A stretch of DNA of 64,000 bases, from contig BPHV01000003.1 in assembly GCA_026003755.1 (NCBI GenBank), positions 186,001-250,000 on the forward strand. Reading direction: 5' to 3'. Numbering within the stretch: the first letter of the stretch is position 1; each line of letters starts with the position of its first letter. A program made the position numbers and the translations under genes. The notes beneath the pieces were generated by a model. That model worked only from the letters and a program-made list of their open reading frames with translations. It ran no database searches and was not told where the DNA came from. The DNA comes from Candidatus Roseilinea sp. Lineage in GTDB: Bacteria; Chloroflexota; Anaerolineae; J036; Brachytrichaceae. Positions 328 through 58,626 of the stretch are shown here, piece by piece.

Positions 328-1725
328 CTACCTCCTCAACATCTCCAATAACCTCTCGCCCACCTGGTTGCCATCACCGGCGCTGAGCGTGATGACCACG
401 TCGCCGCCCCTCACCTGCGCCAGCAGCATGCCCAGCGCGTCGCCGAACGAGGCTGCGTTGCGCGCGTCGCGATGGCGGATCTTGCGCGCGATCTCGATCG
501 GATTGAGCGCATTCGCGATGAAGCCGAAATCCTCCTGGCGCTCGCGCGCCGCGTAGATCGGCAGCACGATCACGTGGTCGGCGTCGTCGAAGGCCTCGGC
601 AAACGCATCCAGGAGCGCGGCGGTGCGGCTGTAGGTGTGCGGTTGCCAGATCGCCCAGATGTTGCCTAACGGATAGCGCTGGCGCGCGCCGCGCAGCGTC
701 GCTTTGATCTCGGTCGGATGATGCGCGTAATCGTCGAAGATGCGCACGCCGCGCGCCTCGCCCTTTAGCTCGAAGCGACGGCCGGCGCCTCGGTAGCCGC
801 CGAGCGACTTCACCGCTTCGCCCATCGGCACGCCGCAGGCATCGGCCGCCACCAGCGCCGCCAGCGCATTCAGCACGTTGTGTTCACCCGGCACGCGCAA
901 CGAACATGCCCCACTCACTTCGCCGCGGATTCCTGCGCCCGTGAAGGAGAAGTCCACGCCGCCCAGCGGGTTTGCGCGCAGGTGGGATGCGCGCCACAAG
1001 CCGCCCCGGATGCCGTAGTCCACGACCGGGGCGGACAAGCCGGCGCGCTTGAGCATGGCCACACAACCGGCATCGTCGGCGCAGGTGATCACCACGCCGT
1101 CTTTGGGCACGCTCCGCACGAACATCGCGAAAGCGTCCAACGTCGCATCGAGATCCGCAAATGTGTCGGGGTGGTCATACTCCACGTTGGTCACCACGGC
1201 GACCCGCGGCTGAAAGTGCAGGAAGGTATGGTCGTACTCGTCGGCCTCGACGACGAGGGCTTCGCCTGCGCCCCAGCGCGCGTTCACGCCCAGCGGCTGC
1301 GGCGTCGCCCCGATGACGAACGACGGGGCAAGGCCGGCCTCGGTCAGGATCGTTGCGATCATGCCCGCCGTTGTGCTCTTGCCGTGCGTGCCCGCAACGG
1401 CGATGCCCACTTTGTCCTGCATCAAAGCGCCGATCAAGTCGCCGCGATGCCAAACCGGAATGTCGCGCCGCTGCGCTTCGACCAGCTCCGGCTCATCTTT
1501 GGCGATCGCCGACGACGGCACGAGGATGTCCACCCCGTCGAGATGGCGCGGATCGTGGCCGACGACGACCGGGATGCCTTCGGCCTGCAGCGCCCTGAGC
1601 GTCGGCGAATCGGCGCGGTCGTCGCCGCTGACGCGCACCCCGCGCGCATGCAGCAGGCGGGCCAGCGCGCTCATGCCGGCCCCGCCGACGCCCATGAGGT
1701 GGATGTGTTTATCGAGCCAACTCAT
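328..1725 (-). CDS. murC: UDP-N-acetylmuramate--L-alanine ligase MurC
   Basis: Cytoplasmic Mur ligase that adds L-Ala to UDP-MurNAc with ATP, the first amino-acid step of the peptidoglycan stem peptide. The 465-residue protein has the N-terminal Rossmann motif MGVGGAGMSALARLL (about residues 11-25), the Mur ligase P-loop GTHGKSTT (112-119), the central EADEYDHTFL motif, and a C-terminal domain with FDDYAHHPTEI. Length is normal for MurC. Its ATG overlaps the stop of the upstream CvpA-like gene by 4 nt, implying translational coupling. It is the last gene of the dcw-type operon, the usual position for murC. Confidence 0.97.
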   Translation of the reverse strand: MSWLDKHIHLMGVGGAGMSALARLLHARGVRVSGDDRADSPTLRALQAEGIPVVVGHDPRHLDGVDILVPSSAIAKDEPELVEAQRRDIPVWHRGDLIGALMQDKVGIAVAGTHGKSTTAGMIATILTEAGLAPSFVIGATPQPLGVNARWGAGEALVVEADEYDHTFLHFQPRVAVVTNVEYDHPDTFADLDATLDAFAMFVRSVPKDGVVITCADDAGCVAMLKRAGLSAPVVDYGIRGGLWRASHLRANPLGGVDFSFTGAGIRGEVSGACSLRVPGEHNVLNALAALVAADACGVPMGEAVKSLGGYRGAGRRFELKGEARGVRIFDDYAHHPTEIKATLRGARQRYPLGNIWAIWQPHTYSRTAALLDAFAEAFDDADHVIVLPIYAARERQEDFGFIANALNPIEIARKIRHRDARNAASFGDALGMLLAQVRGGDVVITLSAGDGNQVGERLLEMLRR

Positions 1726-2255
1726 ACCAGAACCACGATGACGAACAGGAAGATCAGGATGAGCACGAAGACCAGCAGCGAGCCGCTGAAGATGACCGGC
1801 GCCCCGCTCTTGATGAAAAAGAACTCATTCCAACCTCCCGGCGGCGGCGTGAAGAGATTGGCGTATTGTCCATCCAGCAAGCCCGCTTGTAGCGCCCAAA
1901 AGGCCAGTGAGCTGAACAACAAGTAGCCGTTGAACATGCCAACCAGGAACGACAGCAAGCCATACTCGAAGCGATTCGCGCCGTTAGCCTGAAAGCGACC
2001 ACGCGCGACGATCGGGCTGAGATAGCCAAAGAACACGATCAGCAAAAAAGGCGCGGCGCGCCAGAAGAAGCGCCAGACCGGGTCTTCATTTGCCCACAGC
2101 GGATTCATGATGTTGGTGAACTGCGGCAGCGAATAGATGAACAGAGCAAACAGCACGGTAAACGTGACGATCACATCGCGCACCCAGCCGCGCGAGGTGC
2201 CGATGAACCCCCACACGATGAGATAGAAGACGAAGAAGATGTCGGCGTTGATCAT
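1722..2255 (-). CDS. CvpA-like integral membrane protein
   Basis: A 177-residue hydrophobic protein with four or five predicted membrane segments. The first two flank a short loop GTSRGWVRDV that resembles the conserved Gly/Arg loop of CvpA-family proteins. It ends in a very hydrophobic final helix (VLILIFLFVIVVLV). CvpA-like proteins have been linked to colicin V export and envelope homeostasis, but the biochemical role is not settled. It lies between murG (1 nt gap) and murC (4-nt overlap), so it is almost certainly co-translated with lipid II synthesis genes. The family assignment rests on topology and one loop motif, so it is tentative. Confidence 0.6.
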   Translation of the reverse strand: MINADIFFVFYLIVWGFIGTSRGWVRDVIVTFTVLFALFIYSLPQFTNIMNPLWANEDPVWRFFWRAAPFLLIVFFGYLSPIVARGRFQANGANRFEYGLLSFLVGMFNGYLLFSSLAFWALQAGLLDGQYANLFTPPPGGWNEFFFIKSGAPVIFSGSLLVFVLILIFLFVIVVLV

Positions 2256-46926: not shown

Positions 46927-48378
46927 ATGTGGCGCGATTACTTCATCCCCGATTCGCTTGACCGAGCGCTGGCGCTGCTCGCCGAATACCCAGACAAGGC
47001 GCGTGTGATCGCCGGAGGAACCGACCTGGTCGTTGAGTTCGACCGCAAACTTCGCCCGCCGTGTGCGCTGATAGACATATCGCGCCTGCCCAATTTGGAC
47101 GCCATTCGCCTGGATGCAGAGGGGCGGATTCACCTCGGCCCGCTGGTCACCCACAACGACGTGGTGGCGTCGGCCCTGTGCGTGTCGCGCGCGCTGCCGT
47201 TGGCGCAGGCCTGCCGGCAAGTCGGCGCGCCGCAGATCCGCAACCGAGGCACAGTCGCCGGCAACCTGATCACCGCGTCACCGGCGAATGACACCATCAC
47301 CGCGCTGATGGCGCTGGACGCGCAGGTGACGCTGCGTTCGCTGCGGGGCGAGCGCAGCATGGCGCTGGCCGATTTCTACACCGGCGTGCGCCGGACGGTG
47401 ATGCAGCCCGATGAGATGCTCACCGATATCGCCTTTCGCGCGTTACAGCCGAATCAGCGCGGCGCATTTCTCAAACTCGGCCTGCGACAGGCGCAAGCGA
47501 TCGCCGTGGTGAATTGCGCCGTGGTGCTCACCCTGAGCGACGATGGACGAGTTGGCGATGCGCGGATCGCGCTGGGCGCGGTTGCGCCAACGATCATCCG
47601 CGCGCCCGAAGCCGAACGCTGGCTGGTGGGCCGGACGCCCGACGAAGAGGCGCTTCGCAGCGCGGCCGAGTTGGCTGCCCAGGCGGCCCGCCCGATTGAC
47701 GACATTCGCGGCAGCGCCGAATACCGACGCGATGCGGCTGCCGTCCTCGTACGCCGCGCGCTCTCCACGGCGCTGGCGGCCGCGCCGGGGGCAGGATGGC
47801 CGGAGCCGCCAGCGTTGCTGCGGCTTGCGCAGAGGGATGCCCGCGAGGCACCCATCCGCGAGGGGGGGCGCCCGATCTCGGCCATCCACACAACGGTCAA
47901 CGGGCGCGCCTATTCAATCGGCGACGCCGAGGCGCGCGAGAAAACGTTGCTGAGGCTGTTGCGCGAAGACTGCGGCTTGGTCGGCGTAAAGGAAGGATGC
48001 AGCGAGGGCGAATGCGGCGCATGCACGGTGATCCTGGACGGGCGCGCGGTCATGGCCTGCCTGACGCCCGCGCCGCGCGCCCATGGCGCGACGATCTTCA
48101 CGATCGAAGGCGTCAATGCGCTGCAAGAGTCGCCGGGCGACGAACTGCACCCGCTCCAACGCGCCTTCATCGAAGCGGGCGCCGTGCAGTGTGGCTACTG
48201 CACCCCCGGCTTCATCATGAGCGGCGCGGCGCTGCTATGCGAGCATCCACACCCATCGGACGCGCAGATCAAGGAAAGCATCAGCGGCAACCTGTGCCGT
48301 TGCACGGGATACTACAAAATCATCGAGGCCTTCCAGCGCGCGAGGAATGCGTATGAGCGATCAAGAGCGAGCGCATGA
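46927..48378 (+). CDS. Fused FAD-binding and [2Fe-2S] subunits of a xanthine dehydrogenase/CO dehydrogenase-type enzyme
   Basis: A 483-residue fusion of the two electron-transfer subunits of molybdenum hydroxylases. The N-terminal FAD domain (about 1-285) has YFIPDSLDRALALLAEYP, VIAGGTDLVVEF and GAPQIRNRGTVAGNLITASP. The C-terminal ferredoxin-like part (about 310-483) has both cluster sites: KEGCSEGECGACTVILDG, then VQCGYCTPGFIMSGAALL and SGNLCRCTGYYKIIEAF. No molybdopterin large subunit is in this window, so the partner and substrate are unknown. A LarA-like gene precedes it by about 40 nt and era follows with overlap. Confidence 0.92.
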   Translation: MWRDYFIPDSLDRALALLAEYPDKARVIAGGTDLVVEFDRKLRPPCALIDISRLPNLDAIRLDAEGRIHLGPLVTHNDVVASALCVSRALPLAQACRQVGAPQIRNRGTVAGNLITASPANDTITALMALDAQVTLRSLRGERSMALADFYTGVRRTVMQPDEMLTDIAFRALQPNQRGAFLKLGLRQAQAIAVVNCAVVLTLSDDGRVGDARIALGAVAPTIIRAPEAERWLVGRTPDEEALRSAAELAAQAARPIDDIRGSAEYRRDAAAVLVRRALSTALAAAPGAGWPEPPALLRLAQRDAREAPIREGGRPISAIHTTVNGRAYSIGDAEAREKTLLRLLREDCGLVGVKEGCSEGECGACTVILDGRAVMACLTPAPRAHGATIFTIEGVNALQESPGDELHPLQRAFIEAGAVQCGYCTPGFIMSGAALLCEHPHPSDAQIKESISGNLCRCTGYYKIIEAFQRARNAYERSRASA

Positions 48379-49397
48379 CGACACCGAACGGCTGATCCAA
48401 GCCTTTCTGGGCGATGAGGAACAGCCGCTGCCGGCAGATCATCGCAGCGGATACGTGGCCGTGGTGGGCAAGCCAAACGTCGGCAAGTCCACGCTGGTTA
48501 ATGCCCTCATCGGCCACAAAGTGGCCATCACTTCGCCCAAGCCTCAAACCACGCGCCGGCGCATCTTGGGCATTCTCACCCGCGAGGACGCCCAGGTGCT
48601 CTTCCTCGACACGCCCGGCGTGCACGAACCGAAGCAGGCGCTCAACCGCTACATGATGCGCGAGGTGGACGCAGCGCTGAAGGGCTGCGACGCGATCCTG
48701 TTCGTCACCGACGTCAGCCGGCTGCCGACCGACGAAGACCATCGCGTAGCCGAGCGCATCGCGCAACTGCCGCAGCCCAAATTGCTGGCCATGAACAAGG
48801 CTGACCTGCTCGACCCGTGCGACGTGGTTGAGCATGTCGCGGCGCATGAGGCGCTGCTGCCCCAGCTAGGCACAGACGCCGCCGCGGAGGCTGCTGGGCA
48901 AGCGCAAGCCCGCTCGGCTGCCTCCATCTTCGACGTGCAAACCTCGATTCTGACCTCGGGCACGCGCGGCGACAACCTAGACAAATTGCTGCACATGATT
49001 CTGAAGACGTTGCCCTACGGCCCGCGCTACTTCCCGGCCGGGCAGTTCACTGACCAGAACCAGCGCTTCCTGGCCGCCGAGTTCGTGCGCGAGCAAGCGC
49101 TGCGCTTTCTTGAGCAGGAGGTGCCACACGGCATTGCCGTCGCCATCGAAGAGGTGGCAACCGCGCCCGAACGGCGTGATCTACATCGCGGCAACGGTCT
49201 ACGTCGAGCGCGAATCGCAAAAAGGCATCTTGATCGGCAAAGGGGGCGAGATGCTAAAGAAGATCGGCGCAAACGCGCGCAAGGAGATCGAACGCGAGCT
49301 GGGCACGAGGGTCTATCTGGAATTGTGGGCGAAGGTGCGTCCGGGTTGGCGACGCGACGACGTTTGGGTCGCACGCCTGATGGGCGCAGGGGCATAG
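48353..49397 (+). CDS. era: GTPase Era, reading frame broken by a +1 shift
   Basis: Ribosome assembly GTPase binding 16S rRNA 3' end. The G domain is complete: [18 protein letters not shown] (G1), [14 protein letters not shown] (G3), MNKADLLD (G4). The KH domain continues in the next frame: [33 protein letters not shown]. The shift lies around 49168-49178 (ACCGCGCCCGAACGG) and equals one extra base; left uncorrected, the first frame runs on to 49813. Era is normally essential, so I suspect a base-insertion error. GAGGA supports the ATG at 48353 rather than 48347. Confidence 0.88.
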
Positions 49398-49418
49398 TCC
49401 ACGCCAAAACCCCGGTGA

Positions 49419-49813
49419 TGATGACCTCACCACACTGCACCGTCGAAGGGGGCACGCTCGAGGGCGGCATGCGCACGGCGTGCATGCAGAACCCGTTCAT
49501 GACGGTGGACGCGCTGCCGGACAAGGGCGCGGGCATCTTTGCAGCGAGCCATCACATGAGCTTCATGTGGGGCCCCCTTGCCTATGGCGCACCGTTCCTG
49601 AGTGCGCAACTGCGGGCTGCAGAACTGATCCGGGCTTACGACAGCGCGTTCTGCCGCGCTGTGCCAGGCGCGACCACGCAGTGGCCGTTCGCGCAGGGCA
49701 AAGACGGCCCCTTTGCCGCCTCACGATGCGTCTCCTCATCTCACGCTCACCCCTGCGGCTACAATGCCCGCGGAGGTTTTCTACATGTCGTTGCTTTACC
49801 GACATCGGCCTAG
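49419..49813 (+). CDS. Hypothetical protein between era and the ABC1 kinase
   Basis: After the end of Era, the plus strand keeps an open frame with strongly GC-biased third positions, starting MMTSPHCTVEGGTLEGGM at about 49419. It reads through ASHHMSFMWGPLAYGAPFLS to a stop at 49811-49813. Codon bias suggests real coding down to about 49740, but no family is recognised. It may be a genuine small gene or a fragment created by frameshifts. Confidence 0.35.
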
Positions 49814-51590
49814 AACAGTTGAGGACGCTTGTGGAAAGGCGAGCTGACTCGGCCGCGCCTGCCCGACGAGCTGACGAACCGCCCCCAGATCGGCGTGCAC
49901 TGCGCGCGCGCGCAGTCAAAGCCCTCTGGTTCGGCGCAACCATGGTTGCTGGGTTCGTCTGGTGGGAGCTGATCCTGGCAAAGATTGTCGGTCAAGCGCG
50001 CGTGGCGCAGGGGCGCATGGATCGCCTCATCAAACTGGCGGGCGACTTTCGCAACCTGGCCATCGAGTTGGGCGGGCGTGTGGATCAAGCTCGGCCAATT
50101 CCTCAGCAGCCGCGTCGATCTGCTCCCGCCGCAGATCATCGCAGAACTCTCCGGCCTACAGGACGCCGTGCCGCCTGCGCCGGCCAGCGTCATGTTGCCC
50201 GTGATCGAACGCGAGTTAGGCCAACCCATCGAGGCCGTCTTCGAGGAGTTCGACCCCCAACCGGTCGCTGCTGCGTCGTTTGGGCAGGCGTATCTGGCTA
50301 CGCTGCGCACCCCATCGCCGAACGGCAAGGCGGCGGCCCGGCGGGTCGTCGTCAAGGTGCAACGGCCACACATGCAGGCCATCGTGGATACCGACCTACG
50401 CTCACTGAAGACCATCGCCGGGATGGTTGAAACTCTACAAGCCGATTCGCCGGCGCGCGAATCTGGATGCGCTGGTCAGGGAGTTCAGCGAAGTGGTGAT
50501 GCAAGAACTGGACTACGCGCAGGAAGCGCGGCACGCGCAGGAGTTCGATCGCAACTTCGCTCAGGACACCGGCGTGCGCGTGCCTAAGGTGTACACCGAT
50601 CTCACCACCCGGCGGCTGATCGTGATGAAGAACGTCGAGGACATCAAAATCCTGGACTTCGAGGGGTTGGAGAGCGCCGGCGTGTCGCGGCGCGAAGTGG
50701 CTAACAAGCTGTTCGACACGTACCTGCGCCAGGTGTTCGAGCACGGCTTTTTTCACGCCGACCCGCATCCGGGCAACCTGTTCGTGCAACCGCTGGATCG
50801 CGCCACCGCGCGTGCGTGGAAGGTGCCGATCGGCCAAGGCACGCCCTTCCGTTTGACCTACGTGGACTTCGGCATGATGGGACGCATCCCGCCGGCCTTC
50901 ATGCGCGAGCTGCGCGAGTTCATCATCGCCGTGAGCTTAAAGGACGCGCGACGCTGGACGGCCGCCGCGCAGCGCATGGGGTTCTTCCTGCCCGAAGCCG
51001 ACCTGAATCGCGTGGAGCAGGCCGTCGGCGCACTGTTTGACCGCTTCTGGGGCGCGGCGGTGAACGACATCAGCAACGTCGAGTTCGGCGAGATGTACGC
51101 CTTTGCCACCGAGTTCCGCGATTTGCTCTCCAGCTTGCCCTTTCAGATTCCGCAGAACGTGCTGTATCTGGGACGCGCGGCCAACATCCTGGCCGGCATG
51201 CTTACCGCGCTGGATCCGGCCTTTAACCCCTGGCGAGCGATTCAGGCCTTTGCAAGCGGCCTGGCCGGACCGACCACGGCGCGCACGGTGCAGGACGTGC
51301 TGAATGAGGGCGCGCGCCTGATCCGGCAGACGATACAACTGCCCAACCAAAGCGACGCATTTTTCTCACACGCGCTCAACGGGCAGCTCGAGGTCCGCGC
51401 CCAGTTGAGCCCGAAGTCCACCGAGGACCTGCGACGCATTGAGGCCGGCGTATCACGGCTGACGTGGGCGGTGGCATTTGCGGCGCTGCTGGTGTGCGGC
51501 ACGTTGCTGACCATCAACGCGCTGAGCGCCTTGGGCGCGGTCTGTTTGGCGTTGGCGGCGATCGCATTCTTCCGGCTGTGGCGCTCGTAA
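49785..51590 (+). pseudogene. ABC1/UbiB-family atypical kinase, broken by +1 shifts
   Basis: Atypical protein kinase-like family (UbiB/ADCK3) tied to isoprenoid lipid metabolism. The start ATG 49785 has GGAGG 8 nt upstream (MSLLYRHRPRTVEDA). The frame then shifts three times: near 49840, near 50080 (before VWIKLGQFLSSRVDLLP) and near 50430 (before KLYKPIRRRANLDALV). Each shift equals one extra base. Diagnostic motifs are SFGQAYLATL, VVVKVQRPHM, the KxGQ-type KLGQFLSSR, and FHADPHPGNLF with FVDFG-like YVDFGMMGRI. Two C-terminal membrane helices follow (VAFAALLVCGTLLTI). Correcting three bases restores a protein of about 600 residues. Confidence 0.8.
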
Positions 51591-53129: not shown

Positions 53130-54293
53130 TCAGTGCCTCACGGCGGCGACGATCTGGTCGAGATGCTCGCGGGCGTGATCGGGCCAGGAGAGCATCCGCA
53201 ACGCCAGGCGCCGGTAGCTGCCTTTGCGAGCGACGAACTCATCGGGCAGCGCGTTGAGCAACGCCACCGTCTCGGCTTCGTTGCGCTTGAGCTCGGTCAA
53301 CAGTGCTTGAACGGTGGGGAAACCGTTGATGACGGCGTCGAGCCGGATGCGCAACGCGCCGGTTTCCGCGTCATACCACGGCTCGTTGCCGGCAATCAAA
53401 TCGGTGAGCCAGGTGTGCAGGTTGCGTTCCTCCGCGATCAAGTGCGCCAGCACGTGGCGCGCGCTCCACTCGCCGGGCGCCGGCGCGCGAGCCGCCTTCT
53501 CTTCGCTCACACCCTTGAAGGCTTGCGTCAGGTCGCGGTTGACTTCGGTGTATTTGCGCGCCACGATTTCGGCCAGCGCCTCAGCGGTCGCCGGCACTTC
53601 GGGCGCCGGCCGCGCCGAGAGGGTGACGGTGGCATTCATCGTCTTGCCGTTGCGCCGGAAGACGACCTTGACCTTGTCGCCTGCGGCGTGGCCGTTCAAT
53701 GCTGCGCCGATCGCATTCCAGCTCGGGGTCTTCTTGCCGTTTACGCTCAGGATCACGTCGCCTTGCTGCAGGCCGGCTTCACACGCGCCCATGCCCTCGG
53801 TGACGCCATCCAGCCGGACGCCTTCATCCCTCGGCTGTGTTTCGCTAATCTCCACGCCCAGCACCGGCTGCCGGGTCTGGCGTAGATCAATACCCGTCTC
53901 CAACACCGACTTGAGATTATCCAGCGCAGCATCCCATTCGGCCTCGCGCTCGTCGGCTGTCTTGATCCACAATTTGCCCTCGCTGGAGTCGGTGAGCTGC
54001 AACGTGGTGACGCCATCTTTGGCAGAAAGGGTAATGACGCACTGGGAATAATTTCCCTCCTCGTCACCGCGCAAGTCGAGGGCGATCTTCTTCTCCGGGG
54101 TCAGGGCGGTATATTTGCCCATCAGGGCATGGCCATCATCCCATTGACAGTACAGTCGGCCGCCGACGCGAGGTTGCACCATGGCACCGTCACAGAACCA
54201 CTCCCGCAGCGATGTGGCATTGGTGAAGGCGCGATAAACAAGCGCTATTGGGGCGTTGAGGGTGCGTTTGAGAGAGAGCGTCTTAGTCGCCAT
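53130..54293 (-). CDS. SRPBCC (AHSA1-like) - PDZ - DinB-like three-domain fusion protein
   Basis: A 387-residue soluble protein with no signal peptide. Residues 1-137 are an AHSA1/SRPBCC ligand-binding fold (TKTLSLKRTLNAPIALVYRAF, LREWFCDGA). About 141-230 form a PDZ domain (PVLGVEISETQ, GACEAGLQQGDVILSVNGKK, NGHAAGDKVKVVFRRNG). About 237-387 form a DinB-like helical bundle (WSARHVLAHLIAEERNLHTW, and HAREHLDQIVAAV with candidate metal His). A cytoplasmic PDZ between these two domains is not an arrangement I know. Function unknown. Confidence 0.8.
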   Translation of the reverse strand: MATKTLSLKRTLNAPIALVYRAFTNATSLREWFCDGAMVQPRVGGRLYCQWDDGHALMGKYTALTPEKKIALDLRGDEEGNYSQCVITLSAKDGVTTLQLTDSSEGKLWIKTADEREAEWDAALDNLKSVLETGIDLRQTRQPVLGVEISETQPRDEGVRLDGVTEGMGACEAGLQQGDVILSVNGKKTPSWNAIGAALNGHAAGDKVKVVFRRNGKTMNATVTLSARPAPEVPATAEALAEIVARKYTEVNRDLTQAFKGVSEEKAARAPAPGEWSARHVLAHLIAEERNLHTWLTDLIAGNEPWYDAETGALRIRLDAVINGFPTVQALLTELKRNEAETVALLNALPDEFVARKGSYRRLALRMLSWPDHAREHLDQIVAAVRH

Positions 54294-54432: not shown

Positions 54433-54441
54433 GTCACTCAT
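54433..54441. repeat. Target site duplication, left copy (GTCACTCAT)
   Basis: The 9-bp sequence directly outside the left end of the insertion element is repeated exactly at 56024-56032, as expected for a transposition event. Confidence 0.9.
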
Positions 54442-56023
54442 GGGTCTATTTCAGTTTGGGGGCGAAGAATAGGCAGCAGACCACATCGCGTCAAAGGCGT
54501 GACCCATGACGGCCGCCCGAATCGGGAGCAGACGCTCGATGCCGGGACGGCTCCAGCGCATCCCGCTACCGGCGAAGCGATGACGGAATTGCTTGCAGGC
54601 GCTCTCGACCACGCCGCTGCCGATCGGCCAGCCATCTTCGCGCAGGCTCTGGTATTGCATGCGTCGCCGGTTGTTCCCGAAGTAGCCCGCTTCACGCCGT
54701 AGCATCTCGGCGTGCTGGGGATGGGTATGGGCGGCCTGACGGAGTCGAGCCGCAATCCGGTCGGCATGGCCCTGGAACAAGAGGGTTTCGTGGGCACGAT
54801 ACCAAGCCTGGGCCGCCGGGCTGCCTGCTGCGTGCAGGCCGTGAGCAACCTGCCACAGATGCTGGCTGGCGTGATACCAGTCCACGGCTTGTCGGCTGTC
54901 GTAGAAGTGCTCGCTGAGCAGATTCCAAATCCACGCGGCGCCATCGCCCAAGGCGATGGTGTCACGTGCCTGCGTCCAGCCGCGACGTTGGGCGGCCGTC
55001 CACAACACCTGGCCGAACCGTTCCGGCCCGCCCAGATGGGCGACGTAGCCGGCGCGGACGGCGTGGGCCGTGTCAACCCACTCCTCGCTCTGGCGATCCC
55101 AAGTCGGCTGTAGCACGACATCGAACACGCACCCCACCTTGAGTTCCTTCCAGCCTTCGCCACGCACATGAACCGTTGCTCCGTCCAGGGCGACACCCAT
55201 CTTGCCCGGCACGGTCGCCGCCTCGGCGGTGCGCCCGCCGCCGTCCGCCAGGGCGCGTTGTGTGGCTTCTACCCCCCGAAAGCGCTCTCCCCATACCGCC
55301 ACCCGCCGCCACACACTGCTGTCGGACATGACCAGCCCGCCCACCTGTCCCAGGATGCGCTCCGCTTCCTCAAACGTCACCAGCCCGCTCAGCCACACCG
55401 CCTGCTTGGCCACCTGTTCGCTCCAGTGCTTGTCCCACACCGCCAGCTGCCGATCGAGGGGGGAAAAGCCCGACGCGGCAGGCTTCACAGTAGTAGTATC
55501 CTCGCTGCACGGACAGGCTGCCCACGCGGCTCTCGACCGTGTTCCGCTTGCGGCCTTTGGAGTGCATCTCCCGCCCGCACTGCGGACAGACCGGCCCCGG
55601 CACCGGGCGGCTCGCCTCTTGCGCCTCGATCACGGTGACCGCCATCGCCTCGCTCATCCGCTTGCGCAGCTTCAGGATCACCTCCTCGATCTGCGTCAGC
55701 GTCGGCTGGCCGGCCTGTTCATTCCAGTCCAGCAATTCATCGATCACGGCCTCCGCTTCTCGCATCAGCACCGCTTTCATCTCGCCTCGCCGTGGCGAAG
55801 ACGCTGACTTGCGCTGTGTCGTCGCCCTGGTCTCTTTCATGGCACACCTCCCGGATATAACTGTCCTCGCATTATGCCCGCAGCGGCCTGCGGCTTGTCG
55901 TCCCTCGCTGAGATGCCGGTCTGTCAATCCACGACGACGTCCGTGATCTTCGGATGTTCACGCGGGCGAGGTCAATCTGCGCGCTTTTTGAGTGCGCTCC
56001 TGCCCCAAAACTGAAATGCACCC
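54442..56023. mobile_element. ISKra4-like insertion sequence, complete (1582 bp)
   Basis: The element is bounded by terminal inverted repeats: GGGTCTATTTCAGTTTGGGG at 54442 and onward, facing GCCCCAAAACTGAAATGCACCC (56002-56023), 19 of 22 positions paired. Both sides carry the 9-bp duplication GTCACTCAT. It encodes a transposase in two overlapping frames on the minus strand and no passenger gene. The intact ends and exact duplication suggest a recent insertion. Confidence 0.93.
54451..55840 (-). CDS. ISKra4-family transposase, two frames joined at a TTTTCCCCCC site
   Basis: The first frame (ATG 55840 with GGGAGGTG 6 nt upstream, ending at 55370) has a helical region and the zinc-type motif CPQCGREMHSKG followed by YYYCEACRVGLFP. 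The second (from about 55488 to 54451) continues PLDRQLAVWDKHW and holds the catalytic domain: MGVALDGATVHVRG, DTIALGDGAAWIWN and GSGVVESACKQFRHRFAGSGM with the acidic triad. The frames join at T4C6 (55467-55458) by a +1 step. That could be a programmed shift, transcriptional slippage, or one extra C in the assembly. Confidence 0.88.
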
Positions 56024-56032
56024 GTCACTCAT
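56024..56032. repeat. Target site duplication, right copy (GTCACTCAT)
   Basis: Right-hand copy of the 9-bp duplication. It includes the stop codon of the MacB-like permease gene (56025-56027), so the insertion left that gene intact. Confidence 0.9.
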
Positions 56033-57302
56033 AGCGCAGCGCCTCAATCGGGTTGAGTTGTGATGCGCGCCAGGCAGGATATACACCAAACAAGATACCG
56101 ACGAACACCGAAAAGCCAACTGCCAGGGCCACGGCGTCGGCCGTCACCAGCGCCGTGAATTGCCCCTGTGAGAGCAGCGCCACGAGGTTCGCCAGCGCCA
56201 CGCCCAGCACAATGCCGACCAACCCGCCCAGCACGGAGAGGACGACCGACTCGATTAAAAACTGCGTCAAAATCACACTGCGCCGCGCGCCGATGGCCTT
56301 GCGCAGGCCGATCTCGCGCGTGCGCTCGGTCACGCTCACCAGCATGATGTTCATGATGCCGATGCCACCCACGAACAAAGAGATGCCGGCAATGGCTGCC
56401 AGGAAGACCGTAATCGCGCCGGTGACTGCACCAATGGTGTTGAGCAAATCGCGCTGGCTGGCGATCGAGAAATCATCCTCGTCCTGAAAGCTGATGCCGT
56501 GTCGCTCGCGTAGCAGGTCGGTCGCCTGCTGGATCACGGCGTCAATGCGCGATTGGTCTACTGCCTGGATGAGGATGATGCCGGCCAAAGGCTCCCCCTT
56601 GGCGTTGCGCTGCGGGAACAGGCGTTCGGTCGCCGTCGTGATCGGCATGATGATCAAGTCGTCGTCGCTGCCCTCGGCGCCACCCACGCGCTGGGCCAGC
56701 ACGCCGATGATGCGAAAGAGCACGCCGTTGATGCGAATGTCCTGGCCAGTAGGGTCACCGCCCGCAGGGAAGAGCTTTCGATACGGCACGTCGCCCAGCA
56801 CGACCACGCGCGAGCCGGCGCTCGTCTCCTCCTGCGTGAAATACCGGCCGTACAGCAGCCGCGCGTTGTTGAGCGCGCGATATTCCGGCACTGTGCCCCG
56901 CACGCGCGTTTCGTATTTTTGCTCCCCGGCCACGGCCCGACCGGTGCCGCTCACGATCGGCGCGACAATCTTAGCGTCGGGGACGCGCGACTTGTCGCGC
57001 AACGCTTCGGCATCGGCCTGGGTGAGCGAGAGCGCCGTGCCGGCGCGCGCGCCGGGCGCGAACGCGCGAAAGCCGGCGCGGTTGGCGCCGCCGCCGATCT
57101 CGACCCGCGCCGGAAACACGAACACCAGATTTGATCCTTGTCCCTCGAACTGGCGGTTGATGAAATCCTGCACGCCGTTGCCGAGCGACAGCAGCGCAAT
57201 CACCGAGGTGACGCCGATGATGATGCCGAGCGTGGTCAACGCGCTGCGCAGTTTGTTGGCGGCCAGCGCGCGCAGGGCCACCTTCAGGTTCTCGATGAAC
57301 AT
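56025..57302 (-). CDS. MacB-type ABC transporter permease (second copy)
   Basis: From ATG 57302 (MFIENLKVALRALAANKLR) the 425-residue protein has one N-terminal helix, a large extracytoplasmic domain of about 230 residues, and three C-terminal helices with the FtsX-like block [28 protein letters not shown]. This is the MacB/FtsX permease architecture without a fused ATPase. It follows a paralogous permease after a 73-nt palindrome-containing gap. The two likely form a heteromeric pair for export by a MacA-type pump. Confidence 0.93.
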   Translation of the reverse strand: MFIENLKVALRALAANKLRSALTTLGIIIGVTSVIALLSLGNGVQDFINRQFEGQGSNLVFVFPARVEIGGGANRAGFRAFAPGARAGTALSLTQADAEALRDKSRVPDAKIVAPIVSGTGRAVAGEQKYETRVRGTVPEYRALNNARLLYGRYFTQEETSAGSRVVVLGDVPYRKLFPAGGDPTGQDIRINGVLFRIIGVLAQRVGGAEGSDDDLIIMPITTATERLFPQRNAKGEPLAGIILIQAVDQSRIDAVIQQATDLLRERHGISFQDEDDFSIASQRDLLNTIGAVTGAITVFLAAIAGISLFVGGIGIMNIMLVSVTERTREIGLRKAIGARRSVILTQFLIESVVLSVLGGLVGIVLGVALANLVALLSQGQFTALVTADAVALAVGFSVFVGILFGVYPAWRASQLNPIEALRYE

Positions 57303-57319
57303 ACTGCTCAAATTGTGCT

Positions 57320-57358
57320 CCCACTTCCGACTCCCTTCCGAGGGGAGTCGGAAGTGGG
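57320..57358. repeat. 16-bp perfect palindrome between the two permease genes
   Basis: CCCACTTCCGACTCCC (57320-57335) pairs exactly with GGGAGTCGGAAGTGGG (57343-57358), loop TTCCGAG. It is related to the elements at 26969-26983 and 40663-40688. It may adjust expression of the second permease or be a mobile repeat. Confidence 0.8.
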
Positions 57359-57375
57359 GAGCTGGACGGTCCCAA

Positions 57376-58622
57376 CTATTCAAACCTCAGCGCGTCAATC
57401 GGATTCAGCCGGCTGGCGCGCCGCGCAGGATAGATGCCGAAGAACAAGCCCACGGCGACCGAAAAGCTCACGGCCAGGAGCACGGCGCCCGGCTGCACAA
57501 TGGCGCTGAAGTCCACGAATCGCGTGACGCCGAGCGCAATCCCCACGCCGAGCATGATGCCGATCAGGCCGCCGATGAACGACAGCACAACCGCCTCGAT
57601 TAAGAACTGGCCCAGGATGGCCGCCGGCGTCGCGCCGATGGCCTTGCGCAGGCCGATCTCGCGCGTGCGCTCGGTCACGCTCACCAGCATGATGTTCATG
57701 ATGCCGATGCCGCCGACCAGCAGCGAGATGGCCGCGATCGCGCCCAGGAACAGCGTGAGCACGCTTGTCACAGCGCTAAACGTGTTCAACAGCTCGGTCT
57801 GGCTGATGATCGAGAAATCGTCGTTGTCGTCTGGAGCGAGCCGATGGCGTTCGCGCAAGATGTCACGCGCGATCGCCTCGATCTGTGGCCGAGCAGCGTC
57901 GCTGGTGGCCTGCAGGTAGATCGTGGACACGAGGCGTTCGCCTGTGCGCGCCTGAGCCTGACGCTGGAAGAGGCGCTCTTGCGCCGTGCTGAGCGGAATG
58001 AACGCGATCGCATCTTGGTCGCCGAGGAAGGAAGACCCTTTCGACTCCATGACGCCGATCACCCGGAAAGGCACGTCGTTGATCTTCACCACTTGGTCGA
58101 GCGGGTCTTCGCCGGGGAAGAGGTCGTTGACCACGGTCTGGCCGAGCACGACCACGCGCGCCCGGCTGTTGTTGTCGGCTTCCTCGATGAACCGGCCGCT
58201 CATTGCCCGCCAGTTGCGCACCTCTGAGAAGCTGGGCGTGACGCCGCTGACTTGCACCTGCGACGTCCGCGAGCCGTAGGAGAAGTTGCCGACCGAGGTG
58301 AAATCGGCGGCGTGCGCCTCGATGTTCGGTGCGCCGGCCACCACCGCGCGGTAGTCGCCCATCGTCAAAAAAGATGACTGCCCAAATGGATTTTGCCCGC
58401 CGCCGGGGCCGCGCTGGATTCGACCCGGCACAATGCCGAGCAGGTTCGTCCCCGAACTGGCGAACTGGTCATTGATGTATTGTTGTACGCCTGCGCCGAT
58501 GGCCATCAAGGCGATCACGGCGCCAATGCCGATGCTGATCCCGATCATCGTCAGGAATGCGCGCAACTGGTTGGCGCCCAACGCGCGCAGCGCCAGCTTG
58601 ATCGCCTCCACAAGGTCTATGT

Positions 58623-58626
<4 letters not shown>
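57376..58626 (-). CDS. MacB-type ABC transporter permease (first copy)
   Basis: A 416-residue paralogue of the downstream permease: [22 protein letters not shown] at the start, a periplasmic domain beginning [17 protein letters not shown], and the same [28 protein letters not shown] block before the last two helices. Its ATG overlaps the stop of the ATPase gene by 4 nt, so the ATPase and this permease are co-translated. It forms the core of an export complex with the ATPase and adaptor encoded upstream. Confidence 0.93.

Follow-up and report, generated by a model that had tools for sequence, protein, structure and literature searches.

A gene on the minus strand of the 64,000-nucleotide stretch of Candidatus Roseilinea sp. 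DNA under analysis (the window) codes for a protein in which an AHSA1 domain, an HtrA-type PDZ domain and a DinB domain follow one another in a single chain, each belonging to a known family but in a three-domain combination that is apparently undescribed. The simplest reading of the comparative sequence data is that one old fusion has been passed down as a unit. In functional terms, the most economical reading is that of a metal-dependent enzyme of the DinB/STL type in which AHSA1 supplies a ligand pocket and PDZ a means of docking, a tentative proposal that is rather more apt to prove wrong than right.

The gene constitutes a single uninterrupted open reading frame (ATG at 54293, stop at 53130, minus strand, 387 aa). 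Pfam scans placed AHSA1 (PF08327; 2.4e-17) at residues 13–132, PDZ_2 (PF13180; 1.1e-11) at residues 143–225 and DinB_2 (PF12867; 1.1e-9) at residues 249–380, all above the curated cut-offs, the DinB_2 score being 39.3 bits against a cut-off of 24.8. Both the coordinates and the three-domain layout proposed in a preliminary description of this DNA were thereby confirmed, and corresponding searches of 42 aligned fusion proteins (domain match at E ≤ 0.001) recorded PDZ_2 and DinB_2 in all 42 and AHSA1 in 41. The claim made in the same description that no protein with this layout had been reported was likewise upheld, in that a literature search on DinB with SRPBCC, AHSA1 or PDZ found no paper joining them in this way.

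Table 1. Position of the fusion gene and of its constituent domains in the window.
Feature	Position	Strand	Basis
AHSA1-PDZ-DinB protein gene, 387 aa	53130..54293	-	ORF, Pfam, full-length relatives
AHSA1/SRPBCC domain and its C-terminal helix, residues 1-134	53892..54293	-	PF08327, fold Z, conservation
HtrA-type PDZ, about residues 142-232	53598..53870	-	PF13180, DegS/DegQ fold match, DegQ profile match
DinB/STL four-helix domain, residues 236-387	53133..53588	-	PF12867, invariant His, YfiT Z

Full-length relatives of the fusion free of internal stops were recorded in 42 of 396 sampled Anaerolineae genomes, distributed over 12 family codes, and in 23 of a set of 99 relatives' genomes that included the source genome. 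Every other sampled genome of the source genus carried a full-length copy (74–97% identity), and further copies were recorded in the same family and far across the class. When a profile of the 42 members was run over 400 Chloroflexota genomes, with the best four candidates per genome scored and the class split counted from the resultant listing, full-length matches were confined to 15 genomes, all of them Anaerolineae; among the best four candidates from each of the ~345 sampled genomes of other classes there were single-domain AHSA1 or PDZ matches and no full-length fusion. A search of plasmids yielded single-domain matches only, and beyond the phylum a close-relative scan of genome contigs found only near kin.

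The most distant of these relatives exhibited identities of 22–33% per domain and nonetheless retained all three domains within a single open frame, so the layout is the product of neither chance nor a frameshift, and the frameshift named in the preliminary description as a possible refutation is ruled out. Trees constructed separately from the two halves of the protein (residues 1–232 and 236–386) shared 16 splits, against 0.16 on average and at most 3 for shuffled labels, and contained no conflicting pair of splits at a support of 95 or above: this agreement indicates that the protein has been inherited as a unit. The probability that separate genes were fused by an artefact of assembly or prediction is consequently close to nil: no supporting point was found, the two halves have congruent trees, and the 42 class genomes that share the layout represent different assemblies, single-contig ones among them. 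With the exception of one fragmentary solo row, the DinB domains of the fusions also clustered apart from the sampled solo DinB domains. In none of the solo-DinB loci examined (~1.5 kb flanks) did a separate AHSA1 gene lie next to the DinB gene.

Comparison with stand-alone AHSA1 proteins of the Chloroflexota, which bear both the WLC motif and the LETGxDLRE tail of the fusion, confirmed that the LETGxDLR stretch located between the AHSA1 and PDZ domains is no special linker, and the shared motifs point to this AHSA1 subfamily as the putative source of the N-terminal part. Two such stand-alone genes from other Chloroflexota, at 1681–2184 (-) of locus L129 and 1129–1638 (-) of locus L130, exhibited the WLC and LE[TI]GVDLRE motifs; each adjoins a 148-aa ORF judged MoaE-like by eye.

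The AlphaFold model of the whole chain generated from the 42-row alignment (mean pLDDT 92.5, pTM 0.85) suggests a defined relative arrangement of the predicted domains. In this model the N-terminus leads directly into the first AHSA1 strand (residues 4–12), the AHSA1 part assumes a predicted helix-grip fold (Z 19.5 to 3q63), and the PDZ domains of DegS and DegQ align with the modelled PDZ part at a Z of about 15. As the rows returned by Foldseek for the full-length model were taken up by AHSA1 and PDZ matches, the DinB part was modelled and searched alone (pLDDT 93.5). Its best match was YfiT/BstA of B. subtilis (1rxq; Z 14.2, rmsd 3.6 over 146 residues), succeeded by a run of DinB/YfiT entries and, lower down, by ClbS, DfsB, mycothiol-dependent maleylpyruvate isomerase, mycothiol S-transferase and EgtB. 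The relevant Foldseek E-values were weak (best 1.4e-3), and assignment of the fold consequently draws on three lines taken together: the profile match, His triad and Z score.

Each part thus has well-established relatives from which the fusion departs in its architecture. The N-terminal part shares the fold of AHSA1/CalC-like SRPBCC proteins such as 3q63, 1z94, CalU16 and DynU16, but the solved relatives are stand-alone proteins or, in the case of DynU16, longer yet devoid of PDZ or DinB, and among the sequences examined AHSA1 was joined to PDZ and DinB solely in the fusion family. The PDZ part resembles those of HtrA, DegQ, DegP and DegS in sequence, fold, carboxylate loop and, in many cases, a helical insert before the second strand, and the 42-member profile returned DegQ/DegP as its first PDZ matches; unlike those proteins, the fusion has no trypsin-like, HtrA-type protease domain detectible by Pfam scan. 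In a survey of microbial PDZ proteins, 88% of those classified paired the domain with a protease, and neither DinB nor AHSA1 is named in the main text (PMC6411480). In the fusion, a PDZ domain apparently occurs in a setting that is neither a protease nor an envelope system. The C-terminal part shares with the DinB/STL superfamily (BstA-H, mycothiol S-transferase and the DinB domain of EgtB) a four-helix bundle, a three-His site with H-x3-H spacing and a DinB_2 match, but is preceded by AHSA1 and PDZ, whereas the known members are single-domain proteins or, like LmbV and EgtB, possess a different second domain (PMC5815605).

Alignment of the 42 sequences revealed invariant residues throughout the chain. 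In the AHSA1 part these were W32, W120, L127 and G134, accompanied by the conserved C34 (40 of 42) and followed by an invariant R138; in the PDZ part G146, D179, G205 and R214; and in the DinB part W276, H284, E289, H373 and H377. The proposal that the PDZ domain is of a peptide-binding type is consistent with its sequence, in which the LG[VI] carboxylate-binding loop (L145-G146-[VI]147) is intact. Inspection of the DinB site for its His residues, also advocated in the preliminary description, identified H284, H373 and H377, present in 42 of 42 proteins, as the match to the DinB metal triad. The equivalent triad of B. subtilis BstA consists of H67, H160 and H164, and in eight B. subtilis enzymes three His were the sole fully conserved residues and EDTA abolished activity in every case (PMC5815605); H373 and H377 of the fusion reproduce the H-x3-H spacing of H160 and H164.

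Comparison of the window protein with its genus relatives gave dN/dS values of ~0.03–0.08 for DinB, 0.08–0.21 for AHSA1 and 0.07–0.32 for PDZ, and all three parts are therefore under purifying selection within the genus (~0.03–0.32). DinB was the most constrained part within the genus, and PDZ the least similar part in most sister genera, a pattern that would fit a DinB domain holding conserved chemistry and a PDZ domain tracking a changing partner. Binding of the PDZ domain to the protein's own C-terminus is not favoured, as the C-termini vary across the 42 fusion proteins.

On the reading tentatively preferred, the C-terminal DinB/STL bundle would act as a metal-dependent enzyme with H284, H373 and H377 as its putative three-His site, both metal and catalysis being suggested by the residues and the predicted fold. 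The AHSA1 domain would most likely bind a small molecule of hydrophobic or electrophilic character, either presenting it to the DinB site or gating that site, and the intact carboxylate loop suggests that the HtrA-type PDZ would most likely dock the fusion on the C-terminus of another protein. The bound molecule would probably receive a nucleophile, for example a thiol, by a transfer reaction of the kind seen in BstA or the mycothiol S-transferases, and the cofactor would be none of bacillithiol, mycothiol, glutathione or ergothioneine. In favour of this still doubtful assignment are the invariant His triad, the YfiT/BstA-like model, the constraint on DinB, the LG[VI] loop, the whole-chain pTM and inheritance as a unit; opposed to it are the failure to detect any known thiol pathway in the genus, the lack of a neighbour conserved beyond the genus and the spread of DinB folds over proteins whose activities are diverse or unknown.

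In the source genus, searches for the genes of known thiol cofactors detected neither BshC nor glutathione synthetase nor EgtD, and no MshC hit above cut-off. The bacillithiol synthase BshC was found in none of the 23 fusion carriers among the relatives, the four positive genomes all being without the fusion; MshC above cut-off and EgtD were each absent from 29 of 29 genomes, sub-cut-off MshC matches occurring also in 12 controls, as expected for the related CysRS. Known thiol cofactors are thus not supported by the gene content of these genomes, not all of which are complete, and an unrecognised pathway is possible; any thiol partner would be something else. Of the original suggestion, the DinB metal-site histidines are upheld as intact, and a thiol-transferase role stays putative. 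The negative gene searches favour a non-thiol metalloenzyme, in which AHSA1 would be the substrate-holding half and the DinB metal would serve to hydrolyse or otherwise modify the ligand, as does the presence of ClbS, EgtB/SenA-type and unassigned DinB structures among the fold matches. However, the closest assayed structural precedent is a thiol transferase (PMC5815605) and the residues alone do not decide between reactions, leaving this alternative possible but unlikely.

A different and somewhat less likely alternative treats the protein as a stress adaptor or chaperone-like scaffold, with AHSA1 and DinB binding ligands or clients, PDZ recruiting a client or protease, and the metal site serving a structural or sensory purpose. 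The HtrA quality-control type of the PDZ domain and the naming of AHSA1 after an Hsp90 activator domain are in keeping with such a role, but the strict invariance of the His triad, W276 and E289 suggests catalysis, and HSP90 was found neither in the source genome nor in any of nine genus genomes, and was missing from 21 of the 23 carriers in the relatives set, being present in the other two. A co-chaperone role is unsupported there, and an Hsp90 partnership or Aha1-type activator function in the genus was rejected on the same counts. The search for conserved neighbours recommended in the preliminary description pointed to no partner: no gene next to the fusion is kept beyond the genus, and a conserved operon partner was accordingly rejected.

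The preferred enzyme reading may be extended, at an improbable further remove, to a class of cytosolic Anaerolineae enzymes in which a START-like pocket would feed the DinB metal site, PDZ would steer the protein to a partner's C-terminus, and an undescribed thiol or other nucleophile would be deployed. The fusion matters because this combination of domains is old, extends across the class and retains an intact active site, in bacteria for which no small-molecule thiol was identified here; it also gives a practical starting point for studying detoxification or ligand chemistry in the Anaerolineae.

Upstream of the fusion gene and on the same strand are two MacB/FtsX-type permease genes (56025–58626), the nearer of which ends ~140–216 bp before the fusion gene within the genus, an arrangement not conserved outside it. 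In the window, a recent insertion element (54442–56023), missing from the close relatives compared, lies between the stop codon of this permease and the start of the fusion gene, and may as a result alter transcription of the latter in the source genome. Inverted repeats of 22 nt (86%) form the termini of the element, which is flanked by a 9-bp target duplication (GTCACTCAT at 54433–54441 and 56024–56032) and holds two overlapping minus-strand ORFs (54451–55488 and 55370–55927) with a weak UPF0236 match. Elsewhere in the window (48347–50587, plus strand), the ORF of an Era-like GTPase and those immediately before the ABC1 kinase gene (50427–51590) seem to be split over overlapping frames, possibly as a consequence of sequencing errors or decay.
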